Shown here: positions 7,811-63,284 of the stretch, in pieces
Layout: each line of letters opens with the position of its first letter
Position numbering within the stretch: position 1 is the stretch's first letter
Source of the DNA: Apilactobacillus zhangqiuensis
GTDB lineage: Bacteria > Bacillota > Bacilli > Lactobacillales > Lactobacillaceae
Assembly: GCF_019656215.1 (NCBI RefSeq)
Contig: NZ_BPLK01000002.1
Span: 62,001-126,000 of the forward strand
DNA: 64,000 bases
Direction of reading: 5' to 3'
Position numbers and translations under genes: made by a program
Notes under the pieces: generated by a model
Seen by the model: only the letters and a program-made list of their open reading frames with translations
The model's database searches: none
Told to the model about the DNA's origin: nothing

Positions 7811-7845
7811 AAAAAAACACCCAAGATAATCTCGGGTGTTTTTTT
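7811..7845. terminator. Bidirectional terminator between TetR and csp genes
   Basis: AAAAAAACACCC pairs with GGGTGTTTTTTT around an 11-base loop. Symmetry of the A and T runs lets it end the cold shock gene on the minus strand. Confidence 0.8.
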
Positions 7846-7884
7846 GATCTCTTTTTAAACTAAAAGTTAACTAAGAGGTTATCC

Positions 7885-8082
7885 TTATGCAGGAGTAACG
7901 TTAGCAGCTTGTGGTCCACGGTCGCCGTCTTCAACGTCCAATGTAACCTTTTCGCCTTCTTCTAGAGTCTTGAAACCTTCTTTGTTGATAGCTGAGAAGT
8001 GAACGAATACGTCACCGTCTTCAGTAGTGATAAAACCGTAACCTTTATCAGCGTTGAACCATTTAACAGTACCTTGTTTCAT
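7885..8082 (-). CDS. csp: Cold shock protein, CspA family
   Basis: A 65-residue single cold-shock domain. RNP1 (KGYGFITT, residues ~13-20) and RNP2 (VFVHFSAI, ~25-32) provide the aromatic surface that binds single-stranded RNA and DNA. The role is an RNA chaperone that keeps mRNA open for translation at low temperature or in growth transitions. Length and residues are fully canonical. The ribosome binding site AAGGAGG precedes the ATG. A 125-base 5' untranslated region from the promoter at 8215-8243 is long for such a small gene, as is usual for cold-shock mRNAs whose leader is thermoregulated. Confidence 0.95.
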
Positions 8083-8214
8083 AATATGAAACCTCCTTGC
8101 ACATATCGTGCGTTATAAAATCTTAATGTATCAAAAGCCTGAATCAAGGGGTCATTTCATAAAACTATAAAACAAGTAACCTTAACAATCGAAACTATGT
8201 AACACATTGGTAAT

Positions 8215-28569: not shown

Positions 28570-28843
28570 ACCGATACGAACTAAACAAGATGATCAGGAG
28601 AGTAATTATCCAATGATTGCGCAGAGAGTTCACGTTTGCTGAAAGTGAATGAATCAGAAGATAATGAATATGGCCTGTAATTTGGCATCGCTGATAATTA
28701 AGCGATGATGGGGTGGCAACCATTATTAATTGCACGCGTTTATATAGACGTTATTGAGGGTGGAAGTGCAAGCTTTCACTGAATTAGAATGGTACCACGG
28801 AACTCCGTTTCTAGATTATTTAATCTAGGAGCGGAGTTTTTTT
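28570..28843 (+). promoter_or_regulatory. T-box leader, methionine specifier (AUG)
   Basis: A tRNA-sensing transcription attenuator. Stem I base pairs CAGG (28595-28598) with CCTG (28674-28677), and ATTATC (28605-28610) with GATAAT (28660-28665), enclosing a specifier loop whose 3' side reads GAAT-ATG-G with the AUG codon at 28670-28672. The T-box sequence ATGGTACCACGGAAC ends in the terminator stem AACTCCG/CGGAGTT (28801-28838) with a T run. Uncharged tRNA-Met should favour the antiterminator and switch on metQNI. The rest of the gap 28486-28894 holds only this leader and the metQ ribosome binding site. Confidence 0.9.
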
Positions 28844-42156: not shown

Positions 42157-42162
42157 TAACAT

Positions 42163-42430
42163 TAATCGAAGAGGTCGCAAGCGAGAATAGTAGATAAAGT
42201 CAGTCACTGCAATGACTAAGAGCTTTATTGAAAGGTGAACTTGCCGAAGTTAATGATTTTTTGCAGAGATCATTTGCTGGGACGTGTGTTAAGAATGCAC
42301 GGACTGTCACAAGAAAATATGTCTTGTGGAGCGCTTTCGACAATTGAATCCTAAAAATTAGAAATTGATTAGTAAAAATTTTAAAGGTTCTTTTGGATAG
42401 TGTGCCCACTCATCCAAAAGAACCTTTTTT
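42163..42430 (+). promoter_or_regulatory. Lysine riboswitch (L box) with terminator
   Basis: The aptamer (about 42167-42345) contains the conserved blocks GAGGTCGCAAG, AAAGTCAGTCACTG, GGTGAACTTGCCGAAG and GCTGGGACG followed by GGACTGTCAC. The expression platform ends in a 16-base-pair terminator, AAAGGTTCTTTTGGAT (42383-42398) with ATCCAAAAGAACCTTT (42412-42427) plus a T run. Lysine binding should favour termination and shut off lysA-dapH and the genes downstream. The 42045-42127 part of the gap is AT-rich and otherwise empty. Confidence 0.92.
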
Positions 42431-53110: not shown

Positions 53111-53390
53111 AAAAAAAGCATCCGTCCCTTACAAAAGGGCGAATGCTTCGCGGTACCACCTTAGTTTTATAGCTAAAATGATACATTGATATCATTAACT
53201 ATCTTATCCAGAACCTGTTGATTCCTTCGTGTTGTAACATACACAAATGTCGGAAGCTAAATTATTCACTCCCGAAGGTTCAGAGACCATTTTCGATAAC
53301 TTTGAAACGTTCATTTCCACCAACCATGAACTCTCTTTGCAATCATCCATTATGTACTTTTCTCATCAAAACCTAATATATTATTATGTA
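53111..53390 (-). promoter_or_regulatory. T-box leader of mmuP-mmuM, methionine specifier (AUG)
   Basis: Reading the minus strand, the leader has the stem I elements AGAGAGTT and GGTTGGTGGAAATGAAC, a specifier loop reading GAAA-ATG-G with AUG at 53290-53288, the T-box GGTGGTACCGCGAAGC and a terminator GCATTCGCCCTT/AAGGGACGGATGC with a T run at 53111-53117. Uncharged tRNA-Met would induce S-methylmethionine uptake and use. It fills most of the 53091-53518 gap. Confidence 0.92.
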
Positions 53391-59285: not shown

Positions 59286-59319
59286 AAAAAGTGAAATCAT
59301 TTTTTGGTTTCACTTTTTA
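59286..59319. terminator. Terminator hairpin including a stop codon
   Basis: AAAAAGTGAAA (59286-59296) pairs with TTTCACTTTTT (59308-59318). The TGA stop of the minus-strand 87-residue gene (59312-59310) is part of the stem. Confidence 0.75.
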
Positions 59320-59573
59320 TTTTGTTTGAGGTACTCGATTACATTAATCACGTCTTGTTTGTTGACCAGACGATGGTCTAAGGTGTTATAAAACATGGGT
59401 TGATGCTGCTCAATGATTTTACGATCGGACGCATCCCCTGATAAGTAGGCAACGTCACAGGCGTCCTCGATGTTGTCAATCTTAGGAAAGCCCGCAGCAC
59501 TCATGACACTACCTAAGACTGTATCGGCATCTTCGTATTCTAAATCATCCAAATATTTGTCGTACTTCATCAA
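59310..59573 (-). CDS. Hypothetical acidic 87-residue protein
   Basis: A small acidic protein starting MMKYDKYLDDLEYEDADTVLG with no membrane segment. It contains two predicted helices and the turn FPKIDNIEDACDVAYLSGDASD. A purine-rich ribosome binding site (GGTGG, minus strand) lies before it. No recognised family. It is separated from the MIP gene by its terminator. Confidence 0.55.
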   Translation of the reverse strand: MMKYDKYLDDLEYEDADTVLGSVMSAAGFPKIDNIEDACDVAYLSGDASDRKIIEQHQPMFYNTLDHRLVNKQDVINVIEYLKQNKK

Positions 59574-59673: not shown

Positions 59674-59682
59674 TGATATATT
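59674..59682 (+). promoter_or_regulatory. Extended -10 promoter before the structured leader
   Basis: TGA-TATATT (59674-59682) is an extended -10 element without a good -35 box. It places transcription start near 59689, only a few bases before the outer helix of the RNA described next. Confidence 0.5.
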
Positions 59683-59688
59683 AGTTAA

Positions 59689-59776
59689 AACAGTATAGTG
59701 TTCCTCGGTGGGAACAATCGATAGGCATATCGATAGGTGGGTTCGCGTTAGCTAGACGCGAAGGAAATACTATACG
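59689..59776 (+). ncRNA. Unassigned multi-helix RNA leader upstream of a DHA2 efflux gene
   Basis: Four helices can be drawn with only perfect pairs: an outer helix GTATAGT (59693-59699)/ACTATAC (59769-59775); hairpin 1 GTTCC (59700-59704)/GGAAC (59711-59715); hairpin 2 ATCGATA (59717-59723)/TATCGAT (59728-59734) with a GGCA loop; and hairpin 3 TTCGCGT (59742-59748)/ACGCGAA (59756-59762). Unpaired junctions are AGGTGGG and GGAAAT. TTCCT (59701-59705) can instead pair with AGGAA (59762-59766), which excludes hairpin 1. The outer helix ends one base before the GAAGGAG ribosome binding site. I cannot match it to a known riboswitch class. Confidence 0.65.
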
Positions 59777-59789
59777 AAGGAGACTTGTT

Positions 59790-61289
59790 ATGCAAAGTCG
59801 AAATAAATGGTTTGCATTGGTTGCCGTCTGTCTAGGATTCTTCATGGGTCTGTTAGACGTTACCGTTGTAAACGTTGCTCTACCAACCATTCAAACTAGC
59901 TTTAACAGCAGTTTTAGCCAGTTACAATGGGTCATTAATGCTTATACATTAATGTTTGCGGCTGTGTTGTTCCTGATTTCTAAGTTAGGGGACTTAATAG
60001 GGAGAAAACGCATTTTTATCATCAGTTTGGTATTATTCTCTGCTTTCTCACTAGCATGTAGTGTCGCACCAAGTATTACTTGGTTAATCATCTTCCGTGG
60101 AATTCAAGGAATCGGTGGTGCCGGAATGCTTAGTCTTTCCATGAGTATTATTGCCGACATCTTTGAAGGACCATCTAGAGGTTTAGCACTCGGTGTTTGG
60201 GGAAGTGTGGCTGGTTTATCCACCGCACTTGGTCCATTATTCGGGGGAATCCTACTTAGCTTCTTTAGTTGGGAATCCATATTTTGGATGAACATCCCAA
60301 TCGGAGTAATCGCACTATTTATGAGTGCCAGATATATTCCAACTTCTAAGACGTTTAATAGTGGCAAAATCGATTTTATTGGAATGCTATTATCATTTGC
60401 CTTTATGTTCTGTATTATTTTAGGTTTAATTCAAAAAGAAAACCACTATGGATACTCTTGGTTCGATATGCACGTATTTGCCTTGTTGGCAGCTGGTGTT
60501 ATTCTAATCGCCATTTTTGCCGTTTGGGAAAAACACTTTTCAAGTCCAATGTTAGATCTTGGTTTGTTAAAAAACAGACAGGTTGTTGGAAGTGCCATTT
60601 CCAACCTAACATTAGGAATTGCCATCTACGCGGCATTTAGCTACATCATCGTGCTATCGCAAAACTATATGGGCTACTCAGCACTACAAAGTGGATCTCA
60701 ACTAATGCTAATTAGTGCGTTCTCACTTGTGATTGGACCAATATCTGGAAAGATTGCTACCAAAATCAATCCAGGTCTAATCATCAGCTTTGTGCTATTA
60801 TTGGCCGGTGTCGGAATGTTTGTCTTACCAATCTTCTTGGGGAACCAAAACCACTGGTATGGTTTGATTCCTACATTTGTCACACTTGGGTTAGCCAATG
60901 CATTCGTTAATCCACTCTCATCTAACATTGCCGTTAGTTCGGTTGAACCAAAGGAAATCGGGATGACTTCTGGATTACTAAACGTTGGTAAACAATTCGG
61001 AACTAGTCTAGGCCTTGTTGTTTTAGGTTTAGCATTGACCGATACCTACAACGATCACTTAGTTACTTCTAAGATGAGTGATTCATTCATGCACGTGTTC
61101 CAAAATGCTGGACCATTGGCGGGTAGTGAAATCGCTGAAAAGATGCATAACTCATCATTGTTATCAATTGTACACAATGCCTTTTACCGAGGAATTGATA
61201 GCGTTGCGATTACTGATGGTTTCATCTTTATCGTTGCTGGAATTCTTTGCTACATCTTGTTATGTGCCAAAAGAAAAAACAGTAAATAA
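59790..61289 (+). CDS. MFS drug transporter, DHA2 (14-helix) family
   Basis: A 499-residue exporter with 14 helices. The N-terminal LDVTVVNVALPTIQTSF is motif D1, GDLIGRKRIF is motif A, and GLSTALGPLFGGILLSF is motif C of the proton-drug antiporters. Its closest-looking group is the LmrB/EmrB/FarB pumps. It begins 14 bases after the outer helix of the structured leader, so translation or transcription may depend on that RNA. Closed by the terminator 61290-61318. Confidence 0.88.
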   Translation: MQSRNKWFALVAVCLGFFMGLLDVTVVNVALPTIQTSFNSSFSQLQWVINAYTLMFAAVLFLISKLGDLIGRKRIFIISLVLFSAFSLACSVAPSITWLIIFRGIQGIGGAGMLSLSMSIIADIFEGPSRGLALGVWGSVAGLSTALGPLFGGILLSFFSWESIFWMNIPIGVIALFMSARYIPTSKTFNSGKIDFIGMLLSFAFMFCIILGLIQKENHYGYSWFDMHVFALLAAGVILIAIFAVWEKHFSSPMLDLGLLKNRQVVGSAISNLTLGIAIYAAFSYIIVLSQNYMGYSALQSGSQLMLISAFSLVIGPISGKIATKINPGLIISFVLLLAGVGMFVLPIFLGNQNHWYGLIPTFVTLGLANAFVNPLSSNIAVSSVEPKEIGMTSGLLNVGKQFGTSLGLVVLGLALTDTYNDHLVTSKMSDSFMHVFQNAGPLAGSEIAEKMHNSSLLSIVHNAFYRGIDSVAITDGFIFIVAGILCYILLCAKRKNSK

Positions 61290-61318
61290 AAAAGTCGCTT
61301 GTAAAAGCGGCTTTTTTT
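61290..61318. terminator. Bidirectional terminator
   Basis: AAAAGTCGCTT pairs with AAGCGGCTTTT (one G-T pair) between convergent genes, followed by T residues. Confidence 0.8.
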
Positions 61319-61688
61319 AGTGGCGACTTGATTGGTGGCCACCGTTATTTGAAAGTTTAATGTTGTTTCTCTTGAACTTTTGTTGAGCTGAATCTGGTTG
61401 GAAATCAAAATGATGCATACGACCGTTGTAAGGCTTGCCCGCCATCTTGATTTGCACCCAGTCACCCATGATGCGTTGCATGTTTTGTGCTGCCTTAACG
61501 CGACTTTCAATGCCTTCGCTTTTAGCAGCTGGTTCGATATTATCCCTTAGTTGATTGATCAATTTTTGGTGGTAGACCAAAAGAGATTGAGTCAAAGGGG
61601 AGTCTTTGTATGAGTTGAATAGGCGTTCGATAAAACGCATTGCGTCTTTTGAGTTTTTAGGTTCGTAAAATCTTTCGTTATTATCCAT
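61317..61688 (-). CDS. Hypothetical 123-residue protein
   Basis: A soluble, mostly helical protein starting MDNNERFYEPKNSKDAMRF and ending in a basic, Asn/His-rich tail (FKRNNIKLSNNGGHQSSRH). The ATG at 61688 is used because GGAGG lies six bases before it; the in-frame ATG at 61715 is inside the terminator of the permease gene upstream. No recognised family, membrane helix or catalytic motif. Confidence 0.6.
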   Translation of the reverse strand: MDNNERFYEPKNSKDAMRFIERLFNSYKDSPLTQSLLVYHQKLINQLRDNIEPAAKSEGIESRVKAAQNMQRIMGDWVQIKMAGKPYNGRMHHFDFQPDSAQQKFKRNNIKLSNNGGHQSSRH

Positions 61689-61699
61689 AATTGCCTCCA

Positions 61700-61740
61700 A
61701 AAAAATAACCATCATGCATATTATACATGATGGTTATCAT
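61700..61740 (-). terminator. Terminator of the NCS2 permease gene
   Basis: On the minus strand GATAACCATCATG pairs with CATGATGGTTATT around a nine-base loop and is followed by a T run, immediately before the ribosome binding site of the next gene. Confidence 0.85.
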
Positions 61741-61750
61741 TTTACATTGA

Positions 61751-63058
61751 TTAGTCTTCCAATTCAATTTGACCAGTTAAGCTGAATAAGAAACTTAATA
61801 AAACAGCTAGGAAACCACCAACAACGATACCGTTGTCTAAGATGATTTGAGCAGCCTGTGGAAGAGCTCTAAAGATTTGTGGGTAAACTGTCACACCAAT
61901 ACCAGTACCAACTGATAGGGCAACAATTAATAGGTTAGCATTCTTGGTGAAGTCAACGCTTTGTAGAATACGGATACCTTGAACCCCAACCATACCAAAC
62001 ATTACGACCATGGCACCACCAAGTACTGAACTTGGGATAACGGTTGCCACAGCACCAGCCTTAGGAAGTAAACCTAAGATTAATAGGAATAATCCAGCGT
62101 AGTAGATTGGACGTTTTGTCTTAATACCTGATAGTTGAACCACACCCACGTTTTCTGAGAAAGTTGAGTATGGGAAGGTGTTGAAGACACCACCAAGCAT
62201 AGCGGCGATACCTTCAGCACGGTAACCATTAGCTAGGTCTTTTTCACTTAACTTACGACCAGTTAAATCAGCTAATGCCAAGAAGACACCGGTTGATTCA
62301 ACCATGGTAGTTAATGATACTAAAATCATGGTTAAAATAGCTGACCAACTGAAGTGAGGTGTACCGAAGTAGAAAGGTTGTGGGAAGTGGAACCAGCTAG
62401 CTTGTGCAACTGAAGCAAATGAAATCATGCCAAGTGCATATGCAATCACAGTTCCGACTACCATTCCAATTAATACTGAAATTGATCTGAAGAAACCTTT
62501 TCCAAAGATGTTAATCAATATAATAACGGCCATGGTGATTAGACCGACGATTAAATCGTGAGGGTCGGCGAAGTTCTTAGCTGAAGCATTTCCACCACCC
62601 AAGTTTTGCACGGCAACTGGTACCAATGAGAAACCAATAATGGTAATTAGTGAACCAGTAACTACTGGTGGGAAGAACTTACGTAGTTTTGCGAAAAGTC
62701 CTGAGATTAAGAATACGAATAAACCAGAACAAATAATAGCTCCATAGATATATGCGACACCTAGAGTACCACCGATAGTTTCAAGTGGTGTAATAACTTG
62801 TACCGCACATCCCAATACAACGGGAAGACCAATCCCAGTAATTGGGGTCTTCTTAAGTTGTAGTAGTGTGGCAATCCCACACATAAAAATATCTGCAGAA
62901 ACCAGGTAAGTCATTTGAGCTGCATTGAAGTGTAAGAAAGCACCGATTAGCAATGGAACGATAACGTCACCTGAATACATTGCTAACAAGTGTTGGAAAC
63001 CTAAAATGGCTGCTTTGACTTGGGACACCTGTTGCAAATTGCTTTCATGATTATCCAA
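61751..63058 (-). CDS. NCS2-family xanthine/uracil permease
   Basis: A 435-residue nucleobase:cation symporter-2 with 14 helices. The N-terminal LGFQHLLAMYSGDVIVPLLIG carries the QH motif of helix 1, and VESTGVFLALADLTGRKLS and NVGVVQLSGIKTKRP are typical of the xanthine/guanine branch (PbuX-like). A guanine-class riboswitch upstream supports a purine substrate. The start is TTG 63058, seven bases after AGGAGG. Confidence 0.88.
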   Translation of the reverse strand: MDNHESNLQQVSQVKAAILGFQHLLAMYSGDVIVPLLIGAFLHFNAAQMTYLVSADIFMCGIATLLQLKKTPITGIGLPVVLGCAVQVITPLETIGGTLGVAYIYGAIICSGLFVFLISGLFAKLRKFFPPVVTGSLITIIGFSLVPVAVQNLGGGNASAKNFADPHDLIVGLITMAVIILINIFGKGFFRSISVLIGMVVGTVIAYALGMISFASVAQASWFHFPQPFYFGTPHFSWSAILTMILVSLTTMVESTGVFLALADLTGRKLSEKDLANGYRAEGIAAMLGGVFNTFPYSTFSENVGVVQLSGIKTKRPIYYAGLFLLILGLLPKAGAVATVIPSSVLGGAMVVMFGMVGVQGIRILQSVDFTKNANLLIVALSVGTGIGVTVYPQIFRALPQAAQIILDNGIVVGGFLAVLLSFLFSLTGQIELED

Positions 63059-63099: not shown

Positions 63100-63212
63100 A
63101 AAAAGCCTCAATGCTAGAAAAAGCAAAGAGACCTTCATCTTTTTGCTTATAGTCCGAACTTTACGGTTTCGGGTAGAAACTTACCAACCTTATTATGGTA
63201 AATATATAGGCA
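63100..63212 (-). promoter_or_regulatory. Purine riboswitch, guanine class, with terminator
   Basis: On the minus strand the aptamer (63212-63144) has P1 TGCCTATA/TATAAGCA, the P2 TTACC/GGTAA helix, the core AAGTTTCTACC, and P3 CCGAA/TTCGG enclosing ACCGTAAA. The specificity base in GGACTATA is C, the guanine/hypoxanthine type, not the adenine type. A terminator GTCTCTTTGC/GCATTGAGGC with mismatches and a T run ends at 63100. Purines would repress the permease. The remaining gap to 63351 contains the divergent promoter only. Confidence 0.92.
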
Positions 63213-63284
63213 ATAACTGATTTAATTTTGTAATTCAATATTAGACGAATTTTGCGAAAAAAGCAATCCTTATCATTAATATAA

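Follow-up and report, generated by a model that had tools for sequence, protein, structure and literature searches.

The gene at positions 59790 to 61289 of the DNA analyzed here (a window of 64,000 nucleotides) encodes an efflux pump, and a folded RNA with a core of about 75 nt lies directly 5' of it. The locus raises the question of what this leader is: an accidental fold, a structured RNA maintained by selection, or a switch that regulates the pump. The initial annotation, made from the letters alone, had described four helices closing a multi-branch junction, with one short segment able to choose between two partners. The features of the region, all on the plus strand, are as follows.

59674 to 59682, plus strand: putative extended -10 promoter element, TG-A-TATATT, identified by sequence
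59693 to 59775, plus strand: structured leader element, predicted P1-P2-P3 three-way junction, retained 5' of every close orthologue from the genera Apilactobacillus and Nicoliella
59693 to 59699, plus strand: 5' strand of the outer basal helix P1b, GUAUAGU, pairing with 59769-59775
59700 to 59715, plus strand: hairpin 1, GUUCC/GGAAC, an alternative to P1a, not conserved
59701 to 59705, plus strand: 5' strand of P1a, UUCCU, invariant, pairing with 59762-59766
59706 to 59716, plus strand: junction strand J1/2, YGGYGGG(U)AMMA, with GGYGGG at 59707-59712 and its five Gs invariant in 12/12 alignment rows
59717 to 59734, plus strand: P2 hairpin, variable in sequence, with double compensatory changes at four pairs
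59735 to 59741, plus strand: junction strand J2/3, AGGYGGG, the second copy of the motif, five Gs invariant
59743 to 59761, plus strand: P3 hairpin with the conserved loop GUUAGMUAGR, paired in every alignment cell
59762 to 59766, plus strand: 3' strand of P1a, AGGAA, its GGAA part invariant in the alignment
59769 to 59775, plus strand: 3' strand of P1b, ACUAUAC, pairing with 59693-59699
59776 to 59782, plus strand: Shine-Dalgarno sequence (SD), GAAGGAG, directly 3' of P1b
59790 to 61289, plus strand: downstream gene for a 499-aa DHA2 (EmrB-type) MFS efflux permease (TIGR00711, 253.9 bits)

The pump scores above the TIGR00711 (NCBIfam) cut-off for DHA2/EmrB efflux, 230.2 bits; among relatives with a solved structure, EmrB and an "antiseptic resistance protein" come closest. 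The leader starts about 10 bases 3' of the promoter-like element; the extended -10 named in the initial annotation is indeed there by sequence, and within the kunkeei group a TATATT-like -10 is kept but not the TG. All four helices described earlier are also present where they had been placed: the outer helix (59693-59699/59769-59775, 7 bp), hairpin 1 (59700-59704/59711-59715, 5 bp), hairpin 2 (59717-59723/59728-59734, 7 bp) and hairpin 3 (59743-59749/59755-59761, 7 pairs of which the last is U-G, extended to 8 bp in the MFE structure). The same is true for both copies of GGTGGG, and the pattern GGNGGG-N(12-35)-GGNGGG, scanned on both strands, occurs only once in the 64-kb window, in the leader. 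For the 83-nt element, the folding energy is -28.5 kcal/mol compared to -17.7 +/- 3.0 kcal/mol for dinucleotide shuffles (z -3.6, with 1/200 shuffles equally good), and a 127-nt span around the leader gave z -2.96, with 0/200 shuffles as good.

The distribution of the leader follows that of the pump. Among 16 Apilactobacillus genomes, the pump is encoded in nine and the leader precedes it in all nine (9/9), while the other seven carry neither. Outside Apilactobacillus, close orthologues (about 74% identity) were found only in two Nicoliella genomes, both with the leader. All orthologues that are at least 72% identical carry it, and the leader is absent from pump homologues that are at most 53% identical, which occur in other Lactobacillaceae, Weissella, Paenibacillus and others. 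In Apilactobacillus, the pump is flanked by a divergent 87-aa gene and by a small gene adjoining the xanthine permease gene; in Nicoliella, it is preceded by an acyltransferase-like gene. As leader and pump are kept together where the flanking genes differ, the leader moves with the pump rather than with the neighborhood. A plasmid search gave one match, which is the Nicoliella orthologue itself, in a plasmid record of Nicoliella spurrieriana with the stingless bee Tetragonula carbonaria as isolation source. The range of the leader is thus narrow, covering two related, bee-associated genera.

Regarding the surroundings of the pump in the window, the small proteins encoded on either side of it (61317-61715 and 59310-59573, both minus strand) matched no Pfam or NCBIfam family, and their genes are also found beside the pump in the Apilactobacillus MRS2 genome. 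An AT-rich inverted repeat at 59288-59325 (AAAAAGTGAAA...TTTCACTTTTT), 3' of the minus-strand 87-aa gene, is probably a terminator.

Homologues were sought with two covariance models. Model R1, built from four sequences that all came from outside the window's group, recovered 7/7 members of that group, always 5' of the pump (E 8.7e-13 to 2.9e-15), and its next best match over 398 Lactobacillaceae genomes (E 0.0016) was unconvincing. Model R2, for which all twelve aligned matches were used, yielded no credible homologue in 395 genomes of the order, 398 of the phylum and 300 of the class (the sets overlap); in the wide searches with either model, about a dozen candidates were scored per genome, and a diverged homologue could escape. 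R2 detected no second copy of the leader in its own genome. The other R1 and R2 matches (E 1.3e-4 to 1), most of which were read individually, were rejected as chance; many lie within coding sequence, and none has the whole core of P2, P3 and the two GGYGGG motifs. No match was obtained in the phages searched, and among viral contigs a pattern scan returned 76 raw matches, which were weighed neither way.

The structure was tested on an alignment of twelve rows, nine of them distinct. Paired cells amounted to 93.8%, and six pairs showed double changes compared to 0-1 in slid alignments and 0/500 shuffles, for an alignment that was fitted to the model and is biased towards its structure. However, the double changes can also be seen in the raw sequences, for example C-G to U-A in P3 and G-C to A-U in P2, and RNAalifold's own prediction recovered the same helices. 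In P3, two pairs show double changes and a third alternates between U-G and U-A. There is too little variation within the window's group for any covariation. Identity in the leader core between lineages is 61-80%, compared to 26-52% at the fourfold-degenerate sites of the pump gene. Covariation across orthologues, which the initial annotation had put forward as a check, is therefore present as compensatory changes in P2 and P3. Because of this conservation and covariation, a chance fold is ruled out, and comparative sequence analysis makes it clear that the leader should be regarded as a genuine, conserved structured RNA under selection for its shape.

As deduced from the alignment, what is conserved is a three-way junction in which the basal helix P1 (UUCCU/AGGAA) surrounds P2 and P3. 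P1a is the favored fold in 10/11 sequences, and it has no covariation support because it is invariant. P1b is a variable extension of P1: within the window's group, it shows A-U to G-U and G-C to G-U changes, the outer helices of other lineages differ in sequence, and such helices are individually marginal when compared to shuffles (p 0.03-0.63).

Hairpin 1 has no place in this conserved fold. The TTCC segment does have the two GGAA partners pointed out in the initial annotation, and in the window strain hairpin 1 and P1a are near-isoenergetic (-33.7 vs -32.9 kcal/mol, with pairing probabilities of 0.32 and 0.44), as a switch between hairpin 1 and the outer helix would have it. However, this balance is peculiar to the window strain. 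Among the ten remaining sequences, hairpin 1 is worse by 0.7-7.6 kcal/mol with a probability of at most 0.06, and pairing of TTCC with GGAA at 59763 in the basal helix is favored (P1a probability 0.59-0.95); moreover, the fifth pair of hairpin 1 is lost in 6/10 of them, and in 4/10 an inserted U breaks the helix. A switch operated by hairpin 1 is thus highly improbable, and the junction of four helices proposed earlier has to be replaced by one of three, since the fourth is disfavored or broken in the orthologues.

Within the alignment, nineteen unpaired columns are invariant, among them the ten Gs of the GGYGGG motifs, which every row shares. Invariant Gs of this sort in the junctions have the look typical of a ligand-binding or tertiary core. 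These columns also bear on the notion that the leader is a constitutive structured 5' untranslated region, protecting the mRNA or fixing the level of translation without sensing anything. P1 is predicted to be stable without ligand in most members, and there is precedent for structure 5' of an SD raising translation, as a structured aptamer or a tRNA at this position can do so by itself (PMC9142559). Even so, nineteen invariant unpaired columns, including the ten GGYGGG Gs, exceed the needs of a simple stabilizing fold, and we regard a constitutive element as unlikely. Conserved single-stranded motifs in a defined fold, adjoining an SD, would equally suit recognition by a regulatory protein that binds RNA and either represses or activates pump translation. 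However, no regulator gene conserved in both genera lies beside the pump, and the genome has one site only, making a protein site rather unlikely. Structural conservation alone would fit either a protein-binding site or a constitutive element acting on translation or mRNA stability.

The stretch from the leader to the start codon contains no U-run terminator, and no leader-peptide ORF is common to the lineages by start and frame. Control is therefore likely to be exerted at translation initiation. The geometry of the SD, however, differs between the two genera. In Apilactobacillus, P1 ends immediately before the SD, whose AGGAG can pair, weakly (probability 0-0.32), with UUCCU of P1a. In Nicoliella, the outer helix differs in sequence and includes the SD, for which the unpaired probability is 0 in one genome (G103) and 0-0.6 in the other (G069). 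In G103 (L192 1480-1600, minus strand), a CCCCUU located upstream pairs with the whole SD, AAGGGG, unlike the arrangement in Apilactobacillus.

The covered Nicoliella SD bears on a further alternative, namely that the leader senses a physical variable (temperature, pH or K+), for example by means of a K+-dependent G-quadruplex in the junction. In its favor, in addition to an SD that sits in a helix, four GG tracts (GGYGG twice) are invariant in every homologue. The linker containing P2 nevertheless exceeds the length allowed by standard quadruplex folding models, and a physical sensor is quite improbable. The same four tracts might form a natural two-layer G-quadruplex, with two GGYGG strands around P2 within the three-way junction, as the core of a new riboswitch class that binds planar aromatic or cationic pump substrates and controls translation; we hold this reading to be rather doubtful.

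We favor, with moderate confidence and from comparative analysis, the interpretation that the leader is a cis-regulatory orphan riboswitch tuning translation initiation of the DHA2 pump. In keeping with what is generally asked of riboswitches, it is a conserved structured 5' leader in cis with one gene, and a response to a ligand is plausible. A possible mechanism would be that: the ligand-folded core locks P1 and thereby sets access to the adjoining SD; in Apilactobacillus, the locked P1 would leave the SD free and keep UUCCU off AGGAG, turning expression ON, the sense expected for an exporter; and in Nicoliella, where the SD lies within the outer helix, the sign would be the opposite. Exporter logic together with the Apilactobacillus layout would thus suggest an ON switch and the Nicoliella layout an OFF switch, so that the two genera point to different signs of control. 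An aromatic or cationic pump substrate would be a natural guess for the ligand.

If the leader is a riboswitch, it would be a small one (about 75 nt), absent from Rfam and tied to one exporter in bee bacteria, and the inducers of the pump could be plant or host chemicals. The identity of the ligand would reveal the export substrate of the pump, and the ten invariant unpaired Gs constitute a specific, testable structural prediction.

How does this leader compare with known RNAs? In line with the initial annotation, which could match it to none of the families named there, the leader had no match in Rfam 15 at E up to 10 with either of two sequence lengths. Three homologous loci were compared with Rfam as well, and none of them matched credibly: an Apilactobacillus leader (L190) had no Rfam match, and a Nicoliella leader (L192) gave chance-level partial matches only. 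The same library detects four known leaders in the window, namely a lysine riboswitch (RF00168, 110.5 bits) at 42161-42345 on the plus strand, a purine riboswitch (RF00167, 75.7 bits) at 63130-63229 on the minus strand, in front of the gene for the xanthine permease (61751-63058), and two T-box leaders (RF00230) at 28581-28815 on the plus strand and at 53132-53378 on the minus strand. A match to the cspA thermoregulator family (83 bits vs a threshold of 78) was also seen at 7811-8184 on the minus strand. A search of the literature on Apilactobacillus or kunkeei riboswitches found no description of the leader; in PMC12121620, A. kunkeei is mentioned only through a listed RNA-seq set, GSE205998.

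ARAGORN found no tRNA-like gene in the leader. GGYGGG followed by UUCGCG loosely recalls a T-box sequence, but the pump leader is far too short for a T-box leader, which comprises a specifier hairpin, the T-box sequence, an antiterminator and a terminator, and it has no Rfam match to one. Purine riboswitches are three-way junctions as well, with P1, P2 and P3 and a conserved junction core; their junction sequences differ from those of the leader, however, and Rfam gives no match here either. The guanidine riboswitches (the ykkC, mini-ykkC, ykkC-III and mepA classes) are leaders of small-molecule exporters and share this placement with our leader, which nonetheless resembles none of the Rfam families credibly, even at E values as high as 10. 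The closest in logic is the yjdF riboswitch, which binds diverse azaaromatic compounds. It is a mainly Firmicutes leader RNA for which a role in detoxification has been proposed and which is reported to act on translation by SD pairing (PMC4793209, PMC9142559). Both have a multi-helix junction with a conserved junction strand, purine-rich in yjdF. However, yjdF is a four-stem, tRNA-like junction while the leader has three conserved helices and a duplicated GGYGGG; a different gene lies downstream; and the leader does not match the Rfam yjdF family. The leader is therefore best viewed as a good candidate for a new, riboswitch-like orphan class outside Rfam.
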